Of a DNA stretch of 45,771 nt, positions 17,991-30,198 are shown in pieces. The notes under the pieces are model-generated. The model made no database searches and was not told the DNA's origin. It saw only the letters and a program-made list of their open reading frames with translations. Positions within the stretch are counted from its first letter, which is position 1, and each line of letters opens with the position of its first letter. A program made the translations under genes and the position numbers. This DNA comes from a virus, in IMG/VR virus record IMGVR_UViG_3300046517_002645, positions 1 through 45,771 of that record; one strand, 5' to 3'.

Positions 17991-18101
17991 CCTCCAATCA
18001 TCCAATCAAAATTCGAGACCGAGTACCCCCCACTCATTTCCCAGTACCCTTCTGATCAGTGATCCCCCTCCTACTACCTTTTTTGATTGGAGGATTGGAG
18101 G
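17991..18101. repeat. Inverted repeat across the helicase gene end
   Basis: Arms at 17991-18011 and 18081-18101 are reverse complements over 21 bases with one mismatch. One arm lies in the last codons of the VirE-type helicase gene, the other in the leader of the next gene, just upstream of its SD. In the leftward transcript they could form a long stem enclosing the helicase stop codon. Confidence 0.7.
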
Positions 18102-19365
18102 AAGAAGGAACCAGTTTCAGGGGACGTTCTACTGAGCTTTCAGCAGGAAAATAGCGGCGGATGTCGTCGGCGCCCCTCACAATCTTCGTCCAGCCAATCG
18201 CCCGAAGCGCCTTGCCCGCCTTGATCTGCGCGGTGCGGTCCTGCCGGTCCTTAGGCACATCCACGGCGTTGGTGAGCAAGTCCGTGATCATCACCCCGCC
18301 CTTTCGGTAGAGCCCCCGGTTCATGTGCAGGTACTCCTTGAAGTGGATCTCCCACGGATCAGCTTCTCGCCGCTCCTCAGCCTCAGCCTCCGTCGCCTTG
18401 AGCAACTTTTCGTCGTGCGTGTACCACTTCTCATTCGCGCGGTACCGCTTGAACGCTTCGGCCCAAAGCTGATCGCGCTCTGCGCGCAGTGTCACGAGAT
18501 CGATCTTTTTGGTGATCAAGACGGGGCAGAAGCGTCGGGCGCCCGTCGTGTCGTTCAAGTATCCCGCACCGTTCGGGTTGACTGTTCCGGCGAACACGCA
18601 CTGCCGCGGGAAGTCGAGCGTCATCTTACCGTACGAAGGGCGGTAGCTGTCCTTCACCGACGTGATGAAAGCTTTCACGCGGGCGAGATCGGCGCTGCCG
18701 AGGGCGTCGAGCTCACTGAACTCGACGATCCATTTCCGACGGAGTGCTTGGTACCCGTCCTTGCCCCCGATGTTGAAGACCGTATCGAAAAACCAATCGT
18801 CGGACGCGAGCGTGCGGAAGAACGTTGACTTGTGCCACCCCTGCGGTCCTTCGAGGATGAGTACGGTGTCAACTTGTGCTCCCGGACGCATCACACGAGC
18901 AACAGCGCCAAGAAAGAAATTCTTGGTGACGGCACGAGTGTAAGGCGTATCGGGCGCACCTCCAACACGGATGAGCAGATCGTCGACGCGCGACTTCTTG
19001 TCCCACCCGCCAACATCGTTCAGATGCTCTCGTATCGGATGGAACGCCCACCGCTCCGCGACAAGCTGCACGGCCTCGTCGACGACGGACGAGTAGAACG
19101 AGCAACCGTACTCGTTCGAGAGCCACACGGCCGCTCGCGCCGAATCGCTTTGAGTCCAATCGCCGATTTCCGTATTCGCGGGCGCGAGATCCTCAGGCCA
19201 CGGAGGCGACTTCTTCTTGACGATCACCCCAGCGAACGCATCGAGGGCGATGACGTTGTACCACTCCTTTCGGTGCGTGAGGATCGCGACGGCGTTGGCC
19301 AGGCACGGCAAGTACGCGCCCTGCTTGTTCTTGAGGAGATAGGTGTCCCAGCTAGCTGTCGCCAA
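18034..19365 (-). CDS. VirE-type primase-helicase ATPase
   Basis: A 443-residue P-loop ATPase of the virulence-associated E family, the helicase half of many phage and island primase-helicases. Walker A is EGPQGWHKST (about 172-181), Walker B WIVEFSEL (212-219), followed by sensor-like FAGTVNPNG and TGARRFCPV. I choose a TTG start with an AAAGGGAGG SD 7 bases upstream; an ATG 44 codons earlier lies inside the divergent promoter region and lacks an SD. Its AEP-type primase partner is transcribed in the other direction about 1.3 kb away. Confidence 0.8.
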   Translation of the reverse strand: MATASWDTYLLKNKQGAYLPCLANAVAILTHRKEWYNVIALDAFAGVIVKKKSPPWPEDLAPANTEIGDWTQSDSARAAVWLSNEYGCSFYSSVVDEAVQLVAERWAFHPIREHLNDVGGWDKKSRVDDLLIRVGGAPDTPYTRAVTKNFFLGAVARVMRPGAQVDTVLILEGPQGWHKSTFFRTLASDDWFFDTVFNIGGKDGYQALRRKWIVEFSELDALGSADLARVKAFITSVKDSYRPSYGKMTLDFPRQCVFAGTVNPNGAGYLNDTTGARRFCPVLITKKIDLVTLRAERDQLWAEAFKRYRANEKWYTHDEKLLKATEAEAEERREADPWEIHFKEYLHMNRGLYRKGGVMITDLLTNAVDVPKDRQDRTAQIKAGKALRAIGWTKIVRGADDIRRYFPAESSVERPLKLVPSSSNPPIKKGSRRGITDQKGTGK

Positions 19366-19406
19366 TGGCGCGCCTCCCTTTCGACGGTTCGACGAGTAGA
19401 AAGTCG

Positions 19407-19436
19407 AGGCTAGCTCCGCGCGTGAGTCGGCGTCAA
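19407..19436 (-). promoter_or_regulatory. Candidate leftward promoter (TTGACG-N18-TAGCCT)
   Basis: On the minus strand TTGACG is followed after 18 bases by TAGCCT. It lies just upstream of the chosen TTG start of the VirE-type gene. The same element, with TTGACC, recurs before the leftward operon at 24.7 kb, which raises confidence above that of a single weak match. Confidence 0.5.
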
Positions 19437-19441
19437 GACTC

Positions 19442-19470
19442 TTGTCAGACAAAAAGAAACCGCGTATAAC
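19442..19470 (+). promoter_or_regulatory. Strong sigma-70-type promoter for the RHH/primase operon
   Basis: TTGTCA and TATAAC are separated by exactly 17 bases, matching 5 of 6 at each hexamer. The -35 lies in a perfect palindrome TTGTC-A-GACAA, a likely operator. The -10 ends 7 bases before the GTG of the first gene, so the transcript is probably leaderless. Confidence 0.75.
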
Positions 19471-19477
19471 CGCCTGT

Positions 19478-19657
19478 GTGAAGAACGTCGAAATCATCTA
19501 CGCGCGAGTTCCGCGCGAGCTGCGAAGCGCACTCGAACAGGAACGAAAGCGCATGAGCAAGGCGGCTGGGGCCAAAGTGAAAACGAGTGCGGTCATCCGC
19601 ACGATCCTTGAGCGCGGCCTGCGCGCCGCTCAGCAAGACGTCGCTAGGACCGGGTGA
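19478..19657 (+). CDS. Ribbon-helix-helix regulator
   Basis: A 59-residue protein with a short strand EIIYARVPRELRSAL and a helix ending VKTSAVIRTILERGL, the pattern of RHH (CopG/Arc-like) repressors. It starts at GTG immediately after the promoter -10; a TTG farther upstream would coincide with the -35 and is rejected. As first gene after a palindromic -35 it may repress its own operon and the divergent helicase gene. RHH relatives appear at 24.8 and 25.4 kb and 30.1 kb. Confidence 0.7.
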   Translation: MKNVEIIYARVPRELRSALEQERKRMSKAAGAKVKTSAVIRTILERGLRAAQQDVARTG

Positions 19658-22154: not shown

Positions 22155-22388
22155 TCATCGCCGCTTCTCCAACGTCGCCATCCGAAACCCCTTCTCCGTG
22201 AGCACCACGGCGACCGGTTCTCCGTGCTCCGAGATCGGCAGCACTTCAATGACGCCGTTCTCGACGAGCTGTTCTAAGAACTCAGCGCCGCCGCACCAGT
22301 GCTCGACCTCGGCGCGCTTCGGCGCGTAGCTGTTTTTCTGGTGGTAGTGCCGGATGTGGCGGCAGATCTCGTAGGGGTCGTCGGTCAT
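22155..22388 (-). CDS. Small winged-helix-like protein
   Basis: A 77-residue protein. The sequence YEICRHIRHYHQKN, AEVEHWCGGAEFLEQLVENG and a final VAVVLTEKGFRM reads as a helix-helix-wing domain. Its start overlaps the MazG-zinc gene stop as ATGA. It ends 5 bases from the primase stop on the opposite strand. A DNA-binding role is inferred from the fold. Confidence 0.6.
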   Translation of the reverse strand: MTDDPYEICRHIRHYHQKNSYAPKRAEVEHWCGGAEFLEQLVENGVIEVLPISEHGEPVAVVLTEKGFRMATLEKRR

Positions 22389-23002
22389 CGGACGAGCATT
22401 ACCTTGTCGCCGAATTTCGCCTCGCACTCTCTTCCGCACCATCCGCTCTCGTGTGTCGACGGTCGACCGCAACCGCAGACGGGAGCGACTCTCACATCGG
22501 CATGCTTCGCACAGAGAAGCAAACCCCCCTTGGCGATCACGGCTGTGTTCTCGCATTGCGCCCAGCCGCACACGGGATCGTCGCGCCCGGCGGGCCGCGC
22601 ACTTGTCCGCTTTGGCCCCTCGAGTCCCGACGCCGCTCTCTCCGGCGTCGCCACGAGCGCCGCCCGCTTCTCGTGCTGCCGGCGCCGAACGCGATCGATG
22701 ACCTCCGGTTGATGGATCCGCGAGATTTCCTTCTCGAGCTCCTCCTGCGCGTCCACGCCGAGCGCTGCGGCCGCCGCGTACACGGTCACGAGGCAACCGG
22801 CGATCTCCTTTGGAGCTTCTCCGATCGGACGGCTGCACACGTAGTCGACGAGCCGGTGGAGCGTCTCGGAGTCGACGCCGCACGCTTGCGAGAGCTCGAC
22901 GGCCTCCTCGACGACGCGTAGAGAACGTTCTGGAGCGTTCTTGGACTCCGCTTCGGTGAAGACCTTCCGGACCCAGGCGGAGATGCGGGATTGGTTCATC
23001 AT
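22385..23002 (-). CDS. MazG-like protein fused to zinc fingers
   Basis: A 205-residue protein. Residues about 1-115 are a phage-type MazG/all-alpha NTP pyrophosphohydrolase: LRVVEEAVELSQAC (metal-binding Glu residues) and EIAGCLVTVYAAAAALGVD. The common Asp of the second motif is Gly, as in several phage forms. Residues about 140-205 contain CGWAQC, LLLCAKH, CGCGRP and WCGRECEAKFG, probably two zinc sites. It might clear modified or excess dNTPs. The start ATGATG overlaps the upstream stop. Confidence 0.7.
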   Translation of the reverse strand: MMNQSRISAWVRKVFTEAESKNAPERSLRVVEEAVELSQACGVDSETLHRLVDYVCSRPIGEAPKEIAGCLVTVYAAAAALGVDAQEELEKEISRIHQPEVIDRVRRRQHEKRAALVATPERAASGLEGPKRTSARPAGRDDPVCGWAQCENTAVIAKGGLLLCAKHADVRVAPVCGCGRPSTHESGWCGRECEAKFGDKVMLVR

Positions 23003-23208
23003 GGTTCTTCCTCGGCGAAGTGGCCGTCGATTGTCGCTTGACCCATATTCCGCAAGCAGTTCACGCAAGCGGGTGCAGGTTGGCGCTCTTGTTTCGCAAG
23101 CCGTTCGTACATGCGCTCCCCGAGCGCGGTCAGCGGATGAAGAATGGTTTCGATCTCCACGTCGGCCGGTTTGCCGCAAGACAGGCAAACTCGAGGTTGG
23201 TCGGTCAT
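22999..23208 (-). CDS. Zinc-ribbon protein
   Basis: A 69-residue protein coupled by ATGA on both sides. CLSCG near the N-terminus and CVNCLRNMG 40 residues later form a four-Cys zinc ribbon; the intervening region contains LTALGERMYERL. The acidic end is HFAEEEP. Function unknown. Confidence 0.65.
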   Translation of the reverse strand: MTDQPRVCLSCGKPADVEIETILHPLTALGERMYERLAKQERQPAPACVNCLRNMGQATIDGHFAEEEP

Positions 23209-23489
23209 TGGATCGCCTTCGCTAGTGCCCAGCCGATTAGGTAGCCGATGGTCAGGCAGACGCTCACGACGAGCGTGCCGGTCAACCACATCGAAGTACG
23301 TTTCTCAGGGCACCACAACGTCGCCGCTCTTGGGATGCCGCACGTGCAATCGACTGGCAGAAGATAGTCCGCCCAATCCAGTTGTCGACCGCAGCCGTCG
23401 CATACCCAAACGTGGACGCGCTCGTCGCGCTTGCAGTTCGTGCAGTCGTCTACGCCCTGCACCTTGTTCCAGGTGGTCGCTTTTTTCAT
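23205..23489 (-). CDS. Membrane-anchored zinc-ribbon protein
   Basis: A 94-residue protein with three Cys pairs in the N-terminal 60 residues (CTNC, CDGC, CTCG) followed by a C-terminal membrane helix LVVSVCLTIGYLIGWALA and a short KAIQ tail. The zinc domain probably faces the cytoplasm, making it a tail-anchored zinc protein. ATGA overlaps at both ends. Confidence 0.65.
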   Translation of the reverse strand: MKKATTWNKVQGVDDCTNCKRDERVHVWVCDGCGRQLDWADYLLPVDCTCGIPRAATLWCPEKRTSMWLTGTLVVSVCLTIGYLIGWALAKAIQ

Positions 23490-23770
23490 GTCATCCTCGT
23501 GTTCGGCGGTGCGACTTCGAGCGAGCGACGAGGGCTAGCCGTGTTGGGGTTCCACTCCACCGCGTCGATCTCGGGCCAACCGAGTTTCGGCAAACGGAGC
23601 GCCCAGCAGTCACGACACTTCTCGACGCAATCGTACGGCGGCGATCCGACGTCCACGAACATCGTGCGAGCGTGCGCGCAGCCGCGCATCCGTTCGTGTG
23701 CGGCGTCGGATTCTCGATTCCACTTCCAGAACAGGAAGCGCGAGTACGCTCTGCGGATCAAATCGATCAC
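23486..23770 (-). CDS. Small zinc-binding-like protein
   Basis: A 94-residue protein with a hydrophobic/basic N-terminus (IRRAYSRFLFWKW), a CAHARTMF and CVEKCRDCWALRLPK segment, and a disordered Pro/Arg-rich end. Two or three Cys and His residues could bind zinc. It is coupled by ATGA on both sides. Function unknown. Confidence 0.55.
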   Translation of the reverse strand: MIDLIRRAYSRFLFWKWNRESDAAHERMRGCAHARTMFVDVGSPPYDCVEKCRDCWALRLPKLGWPEIDAVEWNPNTASPRRSLEVAPPNTRMT

Positions 23771-24060
23771 GCGAGCCCAACCTTCTGCTTCTTGCCGAAG
23801 ATGCGGTCGTGTCCCTCACGGTAGGCGGGTGTCGCGACCTGCGCCGGTCCCGACTTGTAGATCGACGTCAAGTCGCGCCAGTGATCGTCCCGTGGCGCAC
23901 CGACGTGCGCGAGCTCCGAGTTCGGTCGAAGCGGCTCGCCGTCTTTAGCAGGTCGGATGACCACTTCGCGTATCTCGTCGCCCTGACGTCGGAGAGCGAG
24001 GTGCGCGCCCGGAGCGATCTCGGGGCCGATGGAGATCTCGTCGGTGGGTTTGGGTTTCAT
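23767..24060 (-). CDS. Hypothetical protein
   Basis: A 97-residue polar protein, mostly beta-like, with HLALRRQGDEIREVVIRP (here a strand-turn-strand) and a conserved-looking LRPNSELAHV. It is coupled to the adjoining genes by ATGA overlaps. No family recognised. Confidence 0.55.
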   Translation of the reverse strand: MKPKPTDEISIGPEIAPGAHLALRRQGDEIREVVIRPAKDGEPLRPNSELAHVGAPRDDHWRDLTSIYKSGPAQVATPAYREGHDRIFGKKQKVGLA

Positions 24061-24305
24061 GTGTTTGCCGCCCGTAGCACCCGTTGATGGATCTCGAAGT
24101 AGATCGGTTGCATCGGGCCGCCGAGGTACTCGGCGAGCGTGAAGGCTCTTTCGACGAAGATGGGCTCCGTGATCTTCGGATGCGATGTCTCGATTATCAT
24201 TTGCACGCCGTTCCCAGCGAGGCGCGCGGTAACGCAGATATTCGGGCAGCCGAGCTTGAGGAGCGCGTACTTCATCTCGGATACGGAAGAGCGTTCAGTG
24301 ATCAT
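24057..24305 (-). CDS. Hypothetical protein
   Basis: An 82-residue alpha/beta protein with VTARLAGNGVQMIIETSH and FVERAFTLAEYLGG. Its ATG has an AAAGGAA SD; a longer reading frame upstream overlaps the preceding gene and is not preferred. No recognised family. Confidence 0.55.
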   Translation of the reverse strand: MITERSSVSEMKYALLKLGCPNICVTARLAGNGVQMIIETSHPKITEPIFVERAFTLAEYLGGPMQPIYFEIHQRVLRAANT

Positions 24306-24316
24306 CGGTTTCCTTT

Positions 24317-24691
24317 TCAACCTGGGCAACGGTGTGCCGGCGCCGTCGAGCGGCATGTTGAGCAAAGGTAGTAAGGGAACGGTGCAGCGACGGGCCTCGG
24401 TACCTGCGGTTTGCGCACGAACTTGATGTAGTTCTTCTCGCGCTCCGCGACGCGTTGCGCGCGCGCTGTGGCCTCTTCTCGTCTTCTACGTTCTTTCTTA
24501 CGACGACGACGTTCTGCGATCGACAGTTTGGGGCGTGCTTGCGGATGCTCGTACGCTCGCCACAGATTGATGGGTGACCGAATGGGAGGCGGCTTTGTGC
24601 GGGCCGCATCGACGAAGAGCTCCAGGATCCCGATCCCCAGATCGACGGCGGCGTAGCTCACGACCACCTCATGGAGAGACACGTGTTCCAA
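24317..24691 (-). CDS. Basic coiled-coil protein with C-terminal zinc pair
   Basis: A 124-residue protein, probably the first gene of this leftward operon. An amphipathic helical N-terminus is followed by a very basic helix (about residues 58-85, mostly Arg, Lys and Glu) and a LCSTCRSTAPAHRCPG zinc-binding ending. The start is uncertain: TTG gives 124 residues, and GTG codons shortly after are alternatives. Nucleic-acid binding is inferred. Confidence 0.5.
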   Translation of the reverse strand: MEHVSLHEVVVSYAAVDLGIGILELFVDAARTKPPPIRSPINLWRAYEHPQARPKLSIAERRRRKKERRRREEATARAQRVAEREKNYIKFVRKPQVPRPVAAPFPYYLCSTCRSTAPAHRCPG

Positions 24692-24742
24692 CCAGCTTCC
24701 AACAAGCGGGGACTCCTTTTTCGACGAGATGAGAGAAAGAGG

Positions 24743-24772
24743 AGGCTAAAGCCGGACGCGGGTAGAGGTCAA
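24743..24772 (-). promoter_or_regulatory. Candidate leftward promoter (TTGACC-N18-TAGCCT)
   Basis: On the minus strand TTGACC is followed after 18 bases by TAGCCT, the same layout as at 19.4 kb. It sits in the divergent gap before the leftward zinc-protein operon and faces the rightward RHH/GIY-YIG operon. Confidence 0.5.
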
Positions 24773-24815
24773 GCTTTCTTTGTCGGCTTGTTTCGTCGGT
24801 AAACATCTGTTACGA

Positions 24816-25028
24816 ATGTCCGTTATGGTCGAAAACGAAGCCGATATCATGGTCGCCACACGCGTCGACAAGCCGCTGTACGCGAAGCTTCTAAAACGCC
24901 AGCGAGATGTCAAGAAGATGACCGGTATCGCTCCTAGCGTTAGCGCCATCGTGCGCGCGCTGATTGCGGAAGGGGTCGACAAGCCCGCAACAAGAAACGC
25001 ACCGAGAAGGCACACACAACGAGAATGA
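24816..25028 (+). CDS. Ribbon-helix-helix protein
   Basis: A 70-residue protein. ATRVDKPLYAKLL and SVSAIVRALIAEGV form the RHH strand and helices, and align with the RHH at 19.5 kb and the C-terminus of the next gene. Three in-frame ATGs (24816, 24825, 24849) are possible; none has a strong SD, consistent with a short or absent leader. It probably controls this divergent region. Confidence 0.65.
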   Translation: MSVMVENEADIMVATRVDKPLYAKLLKRQRDVKKMTGIAPSVSAIVRALIAEGVDKPATRNAPRRHTQRE

Positions 25029-25468
25029 GCCGACGCTTCGTCTACTTTATTCAACGCGGAGGGGATGGTCCGATCAAAATAGGCACTACCTCAAACAAGC
25101 TTAGGTCGCGCCTAAGAGAAGTGCAGATCGGATCTCCCGATCCGTTGTACTTGATCGGACACATTCGAGGTCTGGAAGCAGACGTGCACATCAGGTTTCA
25201 GAGGTACCGTATTTCTGGAGAGTGGTTCGAGCCGCACGAAGACATCCTCAACTTCGTACGTTTGAACAGGCTACCCGCTCCTCTCAACGACGAATATATA
25301 CCTATGTCAATCCGAAACATGGAGGGCCCTCTACGGGTAGCGGTAGAACGAGAAAGACAAAAGGCGAGCTTGTTACTAGGTGAAGAGGTAACAGCGGGTG
25401 CGGTCATTCGGGGGATTTTGAAAAGGGCGTTGCTCGATAAGCCGCGCCGACTCAAAAAGGTTCCATGA
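25025..25468 (+). CDS. GIY-YIG nuclease domain fused to RHH domain
   Basis: A 147-residue protein. Residues 5-80 are a T5orf172/GIY-YIG domain: VYFIQ, IKIGTT with the YIG-equivalent KIG, SRLREVQIGSP, a Glu near 51, and HIRFQRYRISGEWFEP. Residues about 93-136 (from PMSIRNMEG to VIRGILKRAL) align with the two RHH proteins in this window. The nuclease could thus be DNA-site directed. It overlaps the RHH gene by ATGA. A homing or phage-defence role is possible. Confidence 0.75.
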   Translation: MSRRFVYFIQRGGDGPIKIGTTSNKLRSRLREVQIGSPDPLYLIGHIRGLEADVHIRFQRYRISGEWFEPHEDILNFVRLNRLPAPLNDEYIPMSIRNMEGPLRVAVERERQKASLLLGEEVTAGAVIRGILKRALLDKPRRLKKVP

Positions 25469-25785
25469 AAATTGAACACCACACGTTCGTCGGGATGATG
25501 TTCGGTGCGCTCATCGCTCTGGGTATCACCTTCGGGCATCGGTGGCGTGAACAACACGCGCCTGTCGCAACGAAGCCGCACGCGACAGCGTCGACAGCGC
25601 CGCAAGTAGTCTCACCTGCGCCCACGACGCAAACAGCGCAAGATGCGTGGCTAGGCAGACGCGCTCTGGAGTTCGACAAGTGCGCCACGTTACACGGCAC
25701 GCCCACGCTCGGCTTCGGTATGAGGGTCGTGTGCTTGGATTCGCACGCCGTGAAGTTCATCGGCGAAGAGCATCCGCCGTACTAG
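25465..25785 (+). CDS. Membrane-anchored protein
   Basis: A 106-residue protein with one N-terminal hydrophobic segment (MMFGALIALGITFGH, about residues 11-25), a Pro/Thr/Ala-rich linker and a C-terminal globular part with two Cys (DKCATLHG and VVCLDSHAV). It would be inner-membrane anchored with its C-terminus outside, where the Cys pair could bond. ATGA overlap with the GIY-YIG gene. Confidence 0.6.
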   Translation: MKIEHHTFVGMMFGALIALGITFGHRWREQHAPVATKPHATASTAPQVVSPAPTTQTAQDAWLGRRALEFDKCATLHGTPTLGFGMRVVCLDSHAVKFIGEEHPPY

Positions 25786-25822: not shown

Positions 25823-26083
25823 ATGGCATCGAAAGAAGAGCTGAAGGGGCTGTGGGTCGGCTGGACGCGCGACGCGATGACGCGGTACGAGATGCCCGTC
25901 GAGATCGACGACGACGAGGATGCGGTCGAAGAGCTCGTCGACGAGATGATCGACGTCGCGACCGACTACGCCGACGGGATGCTCGAGGAGTACCAGAACC
26001 GGTTCGAGGGCGGTGCTCGCCGGAAACGTAAGAAGAAGAGCAAGGACCGCGACCCCGACGAAGACGAAGACGAAGATCCGTAA
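25823..26083 (+). CDS. Charged hypothetical protein
   Basis: An 86-residue protein with an acidic helical core (DDDEDAVEELVDEMIDVATD) and a C-terminal Lys/Arg run followed by an Asp/Glu-rich end. It may bind a basic partner. It starts at ATG shortly after the candidate promoter, with no SD. Function unknown. Confidence 0.55.
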   Translation: MASKEELKGLWVGWTRDAMTRYEMPVEIDDDEDAVEELVDEMIDVATDYADGMLEEYQNRFEGGARRKRKKKSKDRDPDEDEDEDP

Positions 26084-30007: not shown

Positions 30008-30198
30008 CGTTTCTTCTGCTGCTGCTCGGTTTGCTCCGCCCCTCGCACGATGAAGAGACGGATCACTTCGGTTCGGGTGACTGGATTCAACCCTGGCTGC
30101 GACATGCCCTGGGCGATCTTGTCGAGACGCTTCATGAGCGAGCTCGGTAGCTTGACCGCTGTCTGGATCTGTTCTTCCTGCTTCTCGGACATACTCAT
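30004..30198 (-). CDS. Ribbon-helix-helix protein
   Basis: A 64-residue protein. AVKLPSSLMKRLDKIA and PVTRTEVIRLFIVRG form the RHH strand and first helix, a typical CopG/ParG-like dimer with a basic C-terminal tail. An AAAGGAA SD precedes the ATG and ATGA overlaps the upstream gene. It probably represses this or a nearby operon. Confidence 0.65.
   Translation of the reverse strand: MSMSEKQEEQIQTAVKLPSSLMKRLDKIAQGMSQPGLNPVTRTEVIRLFIVRGAEQTEQQQKKR

Follow-up and report, generated by a model that had tools for sequence, protein, structure and literature searches.

A predicted GIY-YIG nuclease joined to an exchangeable ribbon-helix-helix domain in phage genomes

The fusion gene and its two domains

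The window analysed here is the whole 45,771-nucleotide stretch of a viral record (IMGVR_UViG_3300046517_002645). In its central part, a small gene for a free ribbon-helix-helix (RHH) protein is followed by one open frame, at positions 25025-25468, whose start codon shares bases with the stop codon of this RHH gene (ATGA) and whose product joins a GIY-YIG domain to an RHH domain of its own. Two main types of RHH domain, A and B, are distinguished below. The genes and domains concerned are the following.

19478-19657, plus strand: free RHH protein of type A, the closest relative in the window of the fused RHH domain (BLASTP E 3e-7; tree)
24816-25028, plus strand: free RHH protein of type B, translationally coupled to the fusion, with orthologues in relatives
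25025-25468, plus strand: GIY-YIG (MUG113/T5orf172)-RHH fusion of 147 aa (Pfam, AlphaFold2, orthologues in L011, L102/L103 and L109)
25025-25273, plus strand: nuclease domain of the fusion, residues 1-83 (conserved residues in 67 sequences; viral fold library, E 1e-8)
25274-25327, plus strand: linker and RHH strand region, residues 84-101 (pLDDT 66-77 in the monomer model; strand register from the 19-domain alignment and hhalign)
25328-25438, plus strand: RHH helices, residues 102-138, type A (AlphaFold2 helices; clade with the 19478/L095 family, support 99/98; hhalign to RHH_1)
25465-25785, plus strand: gene after the fusion, with a homologue (61%) directly behind a free type-A RHH gene in L097

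Judged by profile matches and conserved residues, the N-terminal half is a GIY-YIG domain of the MUG113/T5orf172 type and a predicted nuclease. Residues 18-78 match the Pfam family MUG113 at 6.7e-10 (39.9 bits against a curated cut-off of 22.3) and residues 5-78 match T5orf172 at 2.2e-8 (34.9 bits against a cut-off of 20). The residues characteristic of the family are intact (Y7, K18-I19-G20, R29, E51, H55 and G65-E66-W67-F68), all of them being constant or almost constant among aligned nuclease domains, with KIG standing in place of YIG. Y7, K18/I19/G20, R29 and E51 are conserved in 65-67 of the 67 aligned nuclease-domain sequences, and Y7, R29, E51 and GEWF are among the family residues kept in all four fusions described below.

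The AlphaFold2 model of the fusion, built from 80 aligned rows, has a mean pLDDT of 89.7 and replaced a single-sequence model that reached a pLDDT of 47. In this monomer, a GIY-YIG core (residues 5-81) is followed by a poorly ordered linker (83-101) and by two helices (102-118 and 124-138). A Foldseek comparison with a viral fold library matched the nuclease half alone, to GIY-YIG/MUG113 proteins (E 1e-8). The best viral structural match is p19 of phage Mx8, a replication initiation protein with a MUG113-type domain 39% identical; unlike in the fusion, this nuclease-type domain is internal to a protein of 393 aa in which no RHH was seen. A Foldseek search of the PDB with the fusion model returned nothing above chance, and sequence profile searches of the PDB with the RHH and nuclease alignments returned nothing meaningful. 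Second MUG113-type domains are also present in the phage records of L011 and L009 (G001:C1:4864-5097 and G002:C1:20975-21253).

The C-terminal half is weakly recognized in single-sequence searches. Pfam assigned no family to the 54 C-terminal aa alone, the single-sequence matches of 19 RHH members to Pfam RHH_1 stay below cut-off (best 0.038), and the RHH families described here are missed by Pfam and NCBIfam models. When either the C-terminal domain or the type-B RHH was used by itself to scan IMG/VR, no relatives were obtained, whereas scans with alignments as the query recovered RHH relatives, and with these included all 19 RHH domains align. A reference of 20 proteins above the Pfam RHH_1 cut-off, taken from 17 of 26 genomes, was used for hhalign comparisons. 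The scores obtained are 27.4 for all 19 domains, 22.4 for the four fused domains, 24.6 for free type A and 21.8 for free type B (helices only). Not one of 150 column shuffles reached the score for any of the four query sets, three of which are in register with RHH_1 over the strand, helix A and the S-hhR helix. Thus, the assignment of the C-terminus to the RHH fold, with its pattern of strand, helix, loop and S-hhR helix, is well supported. The strand is absent from the monomer model, which is expected since the RHH strand pairs only in the dimer.

A preliminary description of this DNA had proposed the same GIY-YIG and RHH layout and had aligned the C-terminal part by eye with both free RHH proteins. 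The layout is borne out by Pfam, by the two predicted C-terminal helices and by the shuffles, which also place the RHH alignment above random expectation. As for the alignment by eye, kinship to the free protein at 19478 holds (E 3e-7, 50% identity over 34 residues), whereas the adjacent protein at 24816 is matched by BLASTP at just E 0.13, and the two free proteins give no BLASTP alignment with each other, so that the three-way alignment stands through intermediates only.

Compared with RHH repressors of the Arc/CopG type (RHH_1), the strand-helix-helix pattern is in register, whereas helix A is about 5 residues longer and the domain is joined to a nuclease. In L011 and L102, the fused domains have no strand Arg, whereas their free relatives retain it. 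The window's own fused RHH stands far apart in the RHH tree, with an end branch of 2.31, and this divergence could also reflect relaxed constraint.

Recurrence of the gene pair and exchange of the RHH half

The same fusion is found in at least three other distinct viral contigs, namely L011, L109 and L102/L103, the last two being near-identical; the L011 protein is 56% identical overall to that of the window. A type-B RHH gene lies directly upstream in four of four fusions, overlapping the fusion gene in the window, L011 and L109 and adjacent to it in L102, and in L011, L105 and L109 type-B orthologues were located immediately before the fusion. This repeated position right behind a type-B RHH gene defines a conserved two-gene unit. 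The type-B gene, whose product has a short and variable tail after the RHH domain, is also present without the nuclease in four of eight distinct loci (L104, L108, L110 and L111). Among the cultured phages of the collection, none has the region around the fusion or either RHH family. These genomes hold several RHH paralogues, since a further subfamily, type C, is encoded by the same phages (L011:7942-8124 and L104:4409-4585). On the minus strand of the window, a weak RHH_1 match below cut-off (30106-30156, E 0.009) lies within an open frame of 262 aa.

Between the window and L011, the nuclease halves are 71% identical with a dN/dS of about 0.13, and the linker and RHH halves are 42% identical with a dN/dS of about 0.38, synonymous sites being near saturation. 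Both halves of the fusion appear to be under selection, and the RHH half evolves faster.

The two halves have different histories. The four fusion nuclease domains form one clade among 67 (support 100/99). In the RHH tree, whose main split between types A and B has a support of 99/98, the fused domains of the window, L011 and L102 group with type A, including the free RHH at 19478, and that of L109 groups with type B, as does its own neighbouring RHH. A single clade of the four fused RHH domains is rejected by the AU test (p = 5e-4; 6e-6 without the long-branched window row). With one nuclease clade and RHH domains that are not one clade, the RHH half has been exchanged. In the window, the strand residues of the fused RHH differ from those of both the free type-A and the adjacent type-B proteins.

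Footprints of the joining can be read in relatives without the nuclease. In L110, a single type-B RHH gene precedes a small gene whose product is of zinc-binding type as judged by eye from CxxC motifs. The fused RHH of L109 and the gene after it are collinear with the free RHH of L110 and this same gene (BLASTN, 380 columns, 67%, 2e-25), and the promoter and start of the upstream type-B RHH gene of L109 are collinear with the same L110 stretch. The nuclease domain of L109 thus stands between two copies of the one RHH gene of L110. In both the L109/L110 and the window/L097 comparisons, the fused RHH retains the downstream neighbour of the free RHH gene, L110 and L097 each having a resident RHH gene followed by the gene found behind the L109 or the window fusion. 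Hence, the nuclease is present or absent at the same locus among relatives, behind the type-B RHH as well as in these two pairs. Neither a clean modern empty allele, with high identity on both sides, nor a cleavage site was found in these comparisons, all of which are between diverged phages. In the window, a primase-like gene and the gene at 25823 are separated by a block of 3.6 kb (22155-25785) that contains minus-strand genes, one of them MazG-like by eye, as well as the RHH gene and the fusion; in L097, the two flanking genes lie close together.

From these data, we infer either that a module of type-B RHH and nuclease became fused in frame with a resident RHH gene on two or more occasions, or that a fusion later swapped its RHH by recombination. 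The simplest reading of the sequences is a repeated in-frame fusion of this module to resident repressor genes. The idea put forward at the outset, that a homing-type nuclease captured a regulator, is backed by the two presence/absence comparisons and by the tree conflict. It seems that these phages give one and the same cutter new targets by exchanging its gripping half.

Control regions and candidate operators

Three DNA features accompany the RHH genes of the window.

19380-19394: direct repeat TTCGACGGTTCGACG (TTCGACG-N-TTCGACG), candidate RHH site in the control region of the type-A RHH and VapE-like genes
24646-24815: divergent control region with a GCTA...GTCAAG element, common to 13 type-A and type-B RHH loci
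24799-24812: conserved box GTAAACATCTGTTA, candidate operator just before the type-B RHH start, at the same position in relatives

The alignment of the control regions of the 13 RHH loci has the invariant columns CTA, GTCAA and TA, and this common layout of type-A and type-B loci would supply homology for RHH exchange. The GCTA...GTCAAG spacing is shared by both divergent control regions of the window (19308-19492 and 24646-24830) and 11 further RHH loci, and the RHH mRNAs may have next to no leader. A strict sigma-70 scan gave no promoter near 24.7 kb, so that statements on promoters are tentative.

The box before the type-B gene recurs at the same position with one change each in L104 (GTAAACATCTGCTA), L105 (GTAAACATTTGTTA) and L011 (GTTAACATCTGTTA), and is absent in L108-L111, where the RHH strand reads Q-[IV]-AAR or P-I-AAR and not MVATR or MIATR. 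The presence of the box thus appears to track the strand sequence, which fits a role as type-B operator. Its 13-base core has no second match in the window at up to 3 mismatches, and an IMG/VR scan for the 14-mer gave many matches among those listed. A palindromic reading of the box was rejected, the arms being merely GTAA/TTAC and not kept in L011 or L105.

The type-A RHH gene at 19478 is divergent to a VapE/primase-helicase-like replication gene (18034-19497, minus strand), which is 38% identical to Pseudomonas phage genes. The GTG at 19478, already taken as its start in the preliminary description, is probably correct since homologues align from there. The direct repeat in this region occurs once in the window against 0.03 expected and, among 112 loci, in RHH control regions only.

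Relation to known systems and possible function

Phage ICP1 encodes Odn (Gp88), a T5orf172 nuclease that has a RepA_N domain similar to the RepA of a satellite and cleaves the origin of that satellite (PMC8263062). As in Odn, a GIY-YIG domain of the T5orf172/MUG113 class is joined here to a DNA-binding domain kin to a free DNA-binding protein, and the binding domain is exchanged between alleles. Unlike Odn, in which RepA_N is N-terminal, the fusion has its nuclease at the N-terminus, an RHH related to phage repressors as binding domain, and an RHH gene as constant upstream neighbour. The T5orf172 genes of Vibrio phages and coliphages carry and swap CapR/DUF723/DUF4397 zinc fingers or RepA_N (PMC10448857). 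These homing-type genes share with the fusion a modular nuclease and binding domain, swapping, and kinship to a transcriptional repressor (CapR), whereas their binding domains are zinc fingers, often repeated, or RepA_N, and RHH is unmentioned in the text of that study. Homing endonucleases of the I-TevI type have the same order of N-terminal GIY-YIG domain, linker and C-terminal DNA-binding part; however, I-TevI binds through a zinc finger and an HTH and acts as a monomer, whereas the RHH should enforce a dimer.

The accessible portion of a 2006 survey of GIY-YIG architectures stresses domain mobility and does not mention RHH (PMC1564403), and that of PMC10853773, where both terms appear, describes no such GIY-YIG and RHH protein. 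In agreement with the earlier suspicion that the layout belongs to no described family, no paper on it was found in a literature in which subscription journals were thinly covered. Other viral MUG113 proteins carry a C-terminal HTH of regulator type (L015:5998-6447, L067:5989-6531, L089:5989-6453 and L090:5983-6567), either Fis (HTH_8, 1e-11) or XRE-like (HTH_3/HTH_31, down to 2.6e-9), and the L086 MUG113 protein has a weak YdaS-like match at the same end. A nuclease with a regulator-type binding domain is therefore a wider pattern, of which the RHH version occurs here.

The favoured reading, with a probability of roughly 0.55, is that of a site-directed phage nuclease used in homing or exclusion. 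The C-terminal RHH domain would dimerise and bind a repressor-type operator, and a flexible linker of 15-20 residues would tether two GIY-YIG domains cutting DNA near that site; a nuclease and a predicted DNA-binding domain are united in one protein, as in free-standing homing endonuclease genes. The type-B RHH probably represses the promoter of its own two-gene operon, which would limit nuclease expression. The nuclease half would travel with this partner and fuse in frame with any RHH gene already in place, so that the specificity half would be inherited from local repressors and then diverge. The likeliest use would be to cut, in related phages or satellites without the module, the replication region under RHH control, homing ranking before competitor exclusion and the latter before regulation. 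It is conceivable, if less than probable, that the pair is a mobile cassette of RHH repressor and GIY-YIG nuclease that inserts in frame before resident RHH genes and takes each as targeting domain, its own RHH replacing the lost repressor and controlling expression.

As to the target, the operator of the adjacent RHH gene had been put forward in the preliminary description. For this phage that proposal is not supported, the fused domain being of type A and not of its neighbour's type B (99/98); L109 is the one case in which the fused RHH and its neighbour share a type. A type-A operator (the 19.4-kb class, by the VapE-like gene) is thus the better candidate and the more likely target in the window phage. 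The fused strand is unlike that of the free type-A protein of the same genome, and this difference may be how self-cutting is avoided.

A fixed, no longer homing phage gene whose product, like Odn, cuts satellites or rival phages at a control or origin region recognized through a borrowed RHH would equally exchange its binding domain while keeping its nuclease (PMC8263062, PMC10448857), and the RHH genes of these phages do adjoin VapE-like replication genes. The fused RHH domains, however, match the phages' own repressor families, and we consider this competitor-directed function unlikely. Little credence is given to a regulatory pair, in which the fusion would mainly be a repressor or helper of the type-B RHH, through heterodimers or operator binding, and would cut rarely or never. 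I-TevI does combine both activities, being a cutter that also represses its own promoter. Translational coupling of the fusion to the RHH gene and the regulator-type HTH at the same end of other viral MUG113 proteins (HTH_8 1e-11, HTH_3 2.6e-9, HTH_31 6e-8) are in line with regulation, whereas the nuclease half is the better conserved one (71% vs 42% identity) and keeps all conserved residues.

A small RHH gene upstream of, and overlapping, a nuclease gene is also the usual layout of toxin-antitoxin loci, and the two genes could be read as a type II-like module made of an antitoxin and autorepressor followed by a nuclease toxin. This is very improbable, as the pair is not obligate (the type-B RHH stands without a nuclease in the four loci given above), the tail of the type-B protein after its RHH is short and variable, the nuclease has an RHH of its own, and neither PADLOC nor NCBIfam gave a match.

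With a site-directed nuclease as the preferred reading, RHH repressors join the short list of DNA-binding domains borrowed by T5orf172-type nucleases, and the sequences directly reveal the gene that donated the domain, its partner gene and the trace left by the joining. If the RHH guides cutting, its obligate dimer would let the GIY-YIG domains cut both strands, and the natural pairs with the same nuclease and a different RHH would lend themselves to studying how a phage regulator becomes a targeting domain.
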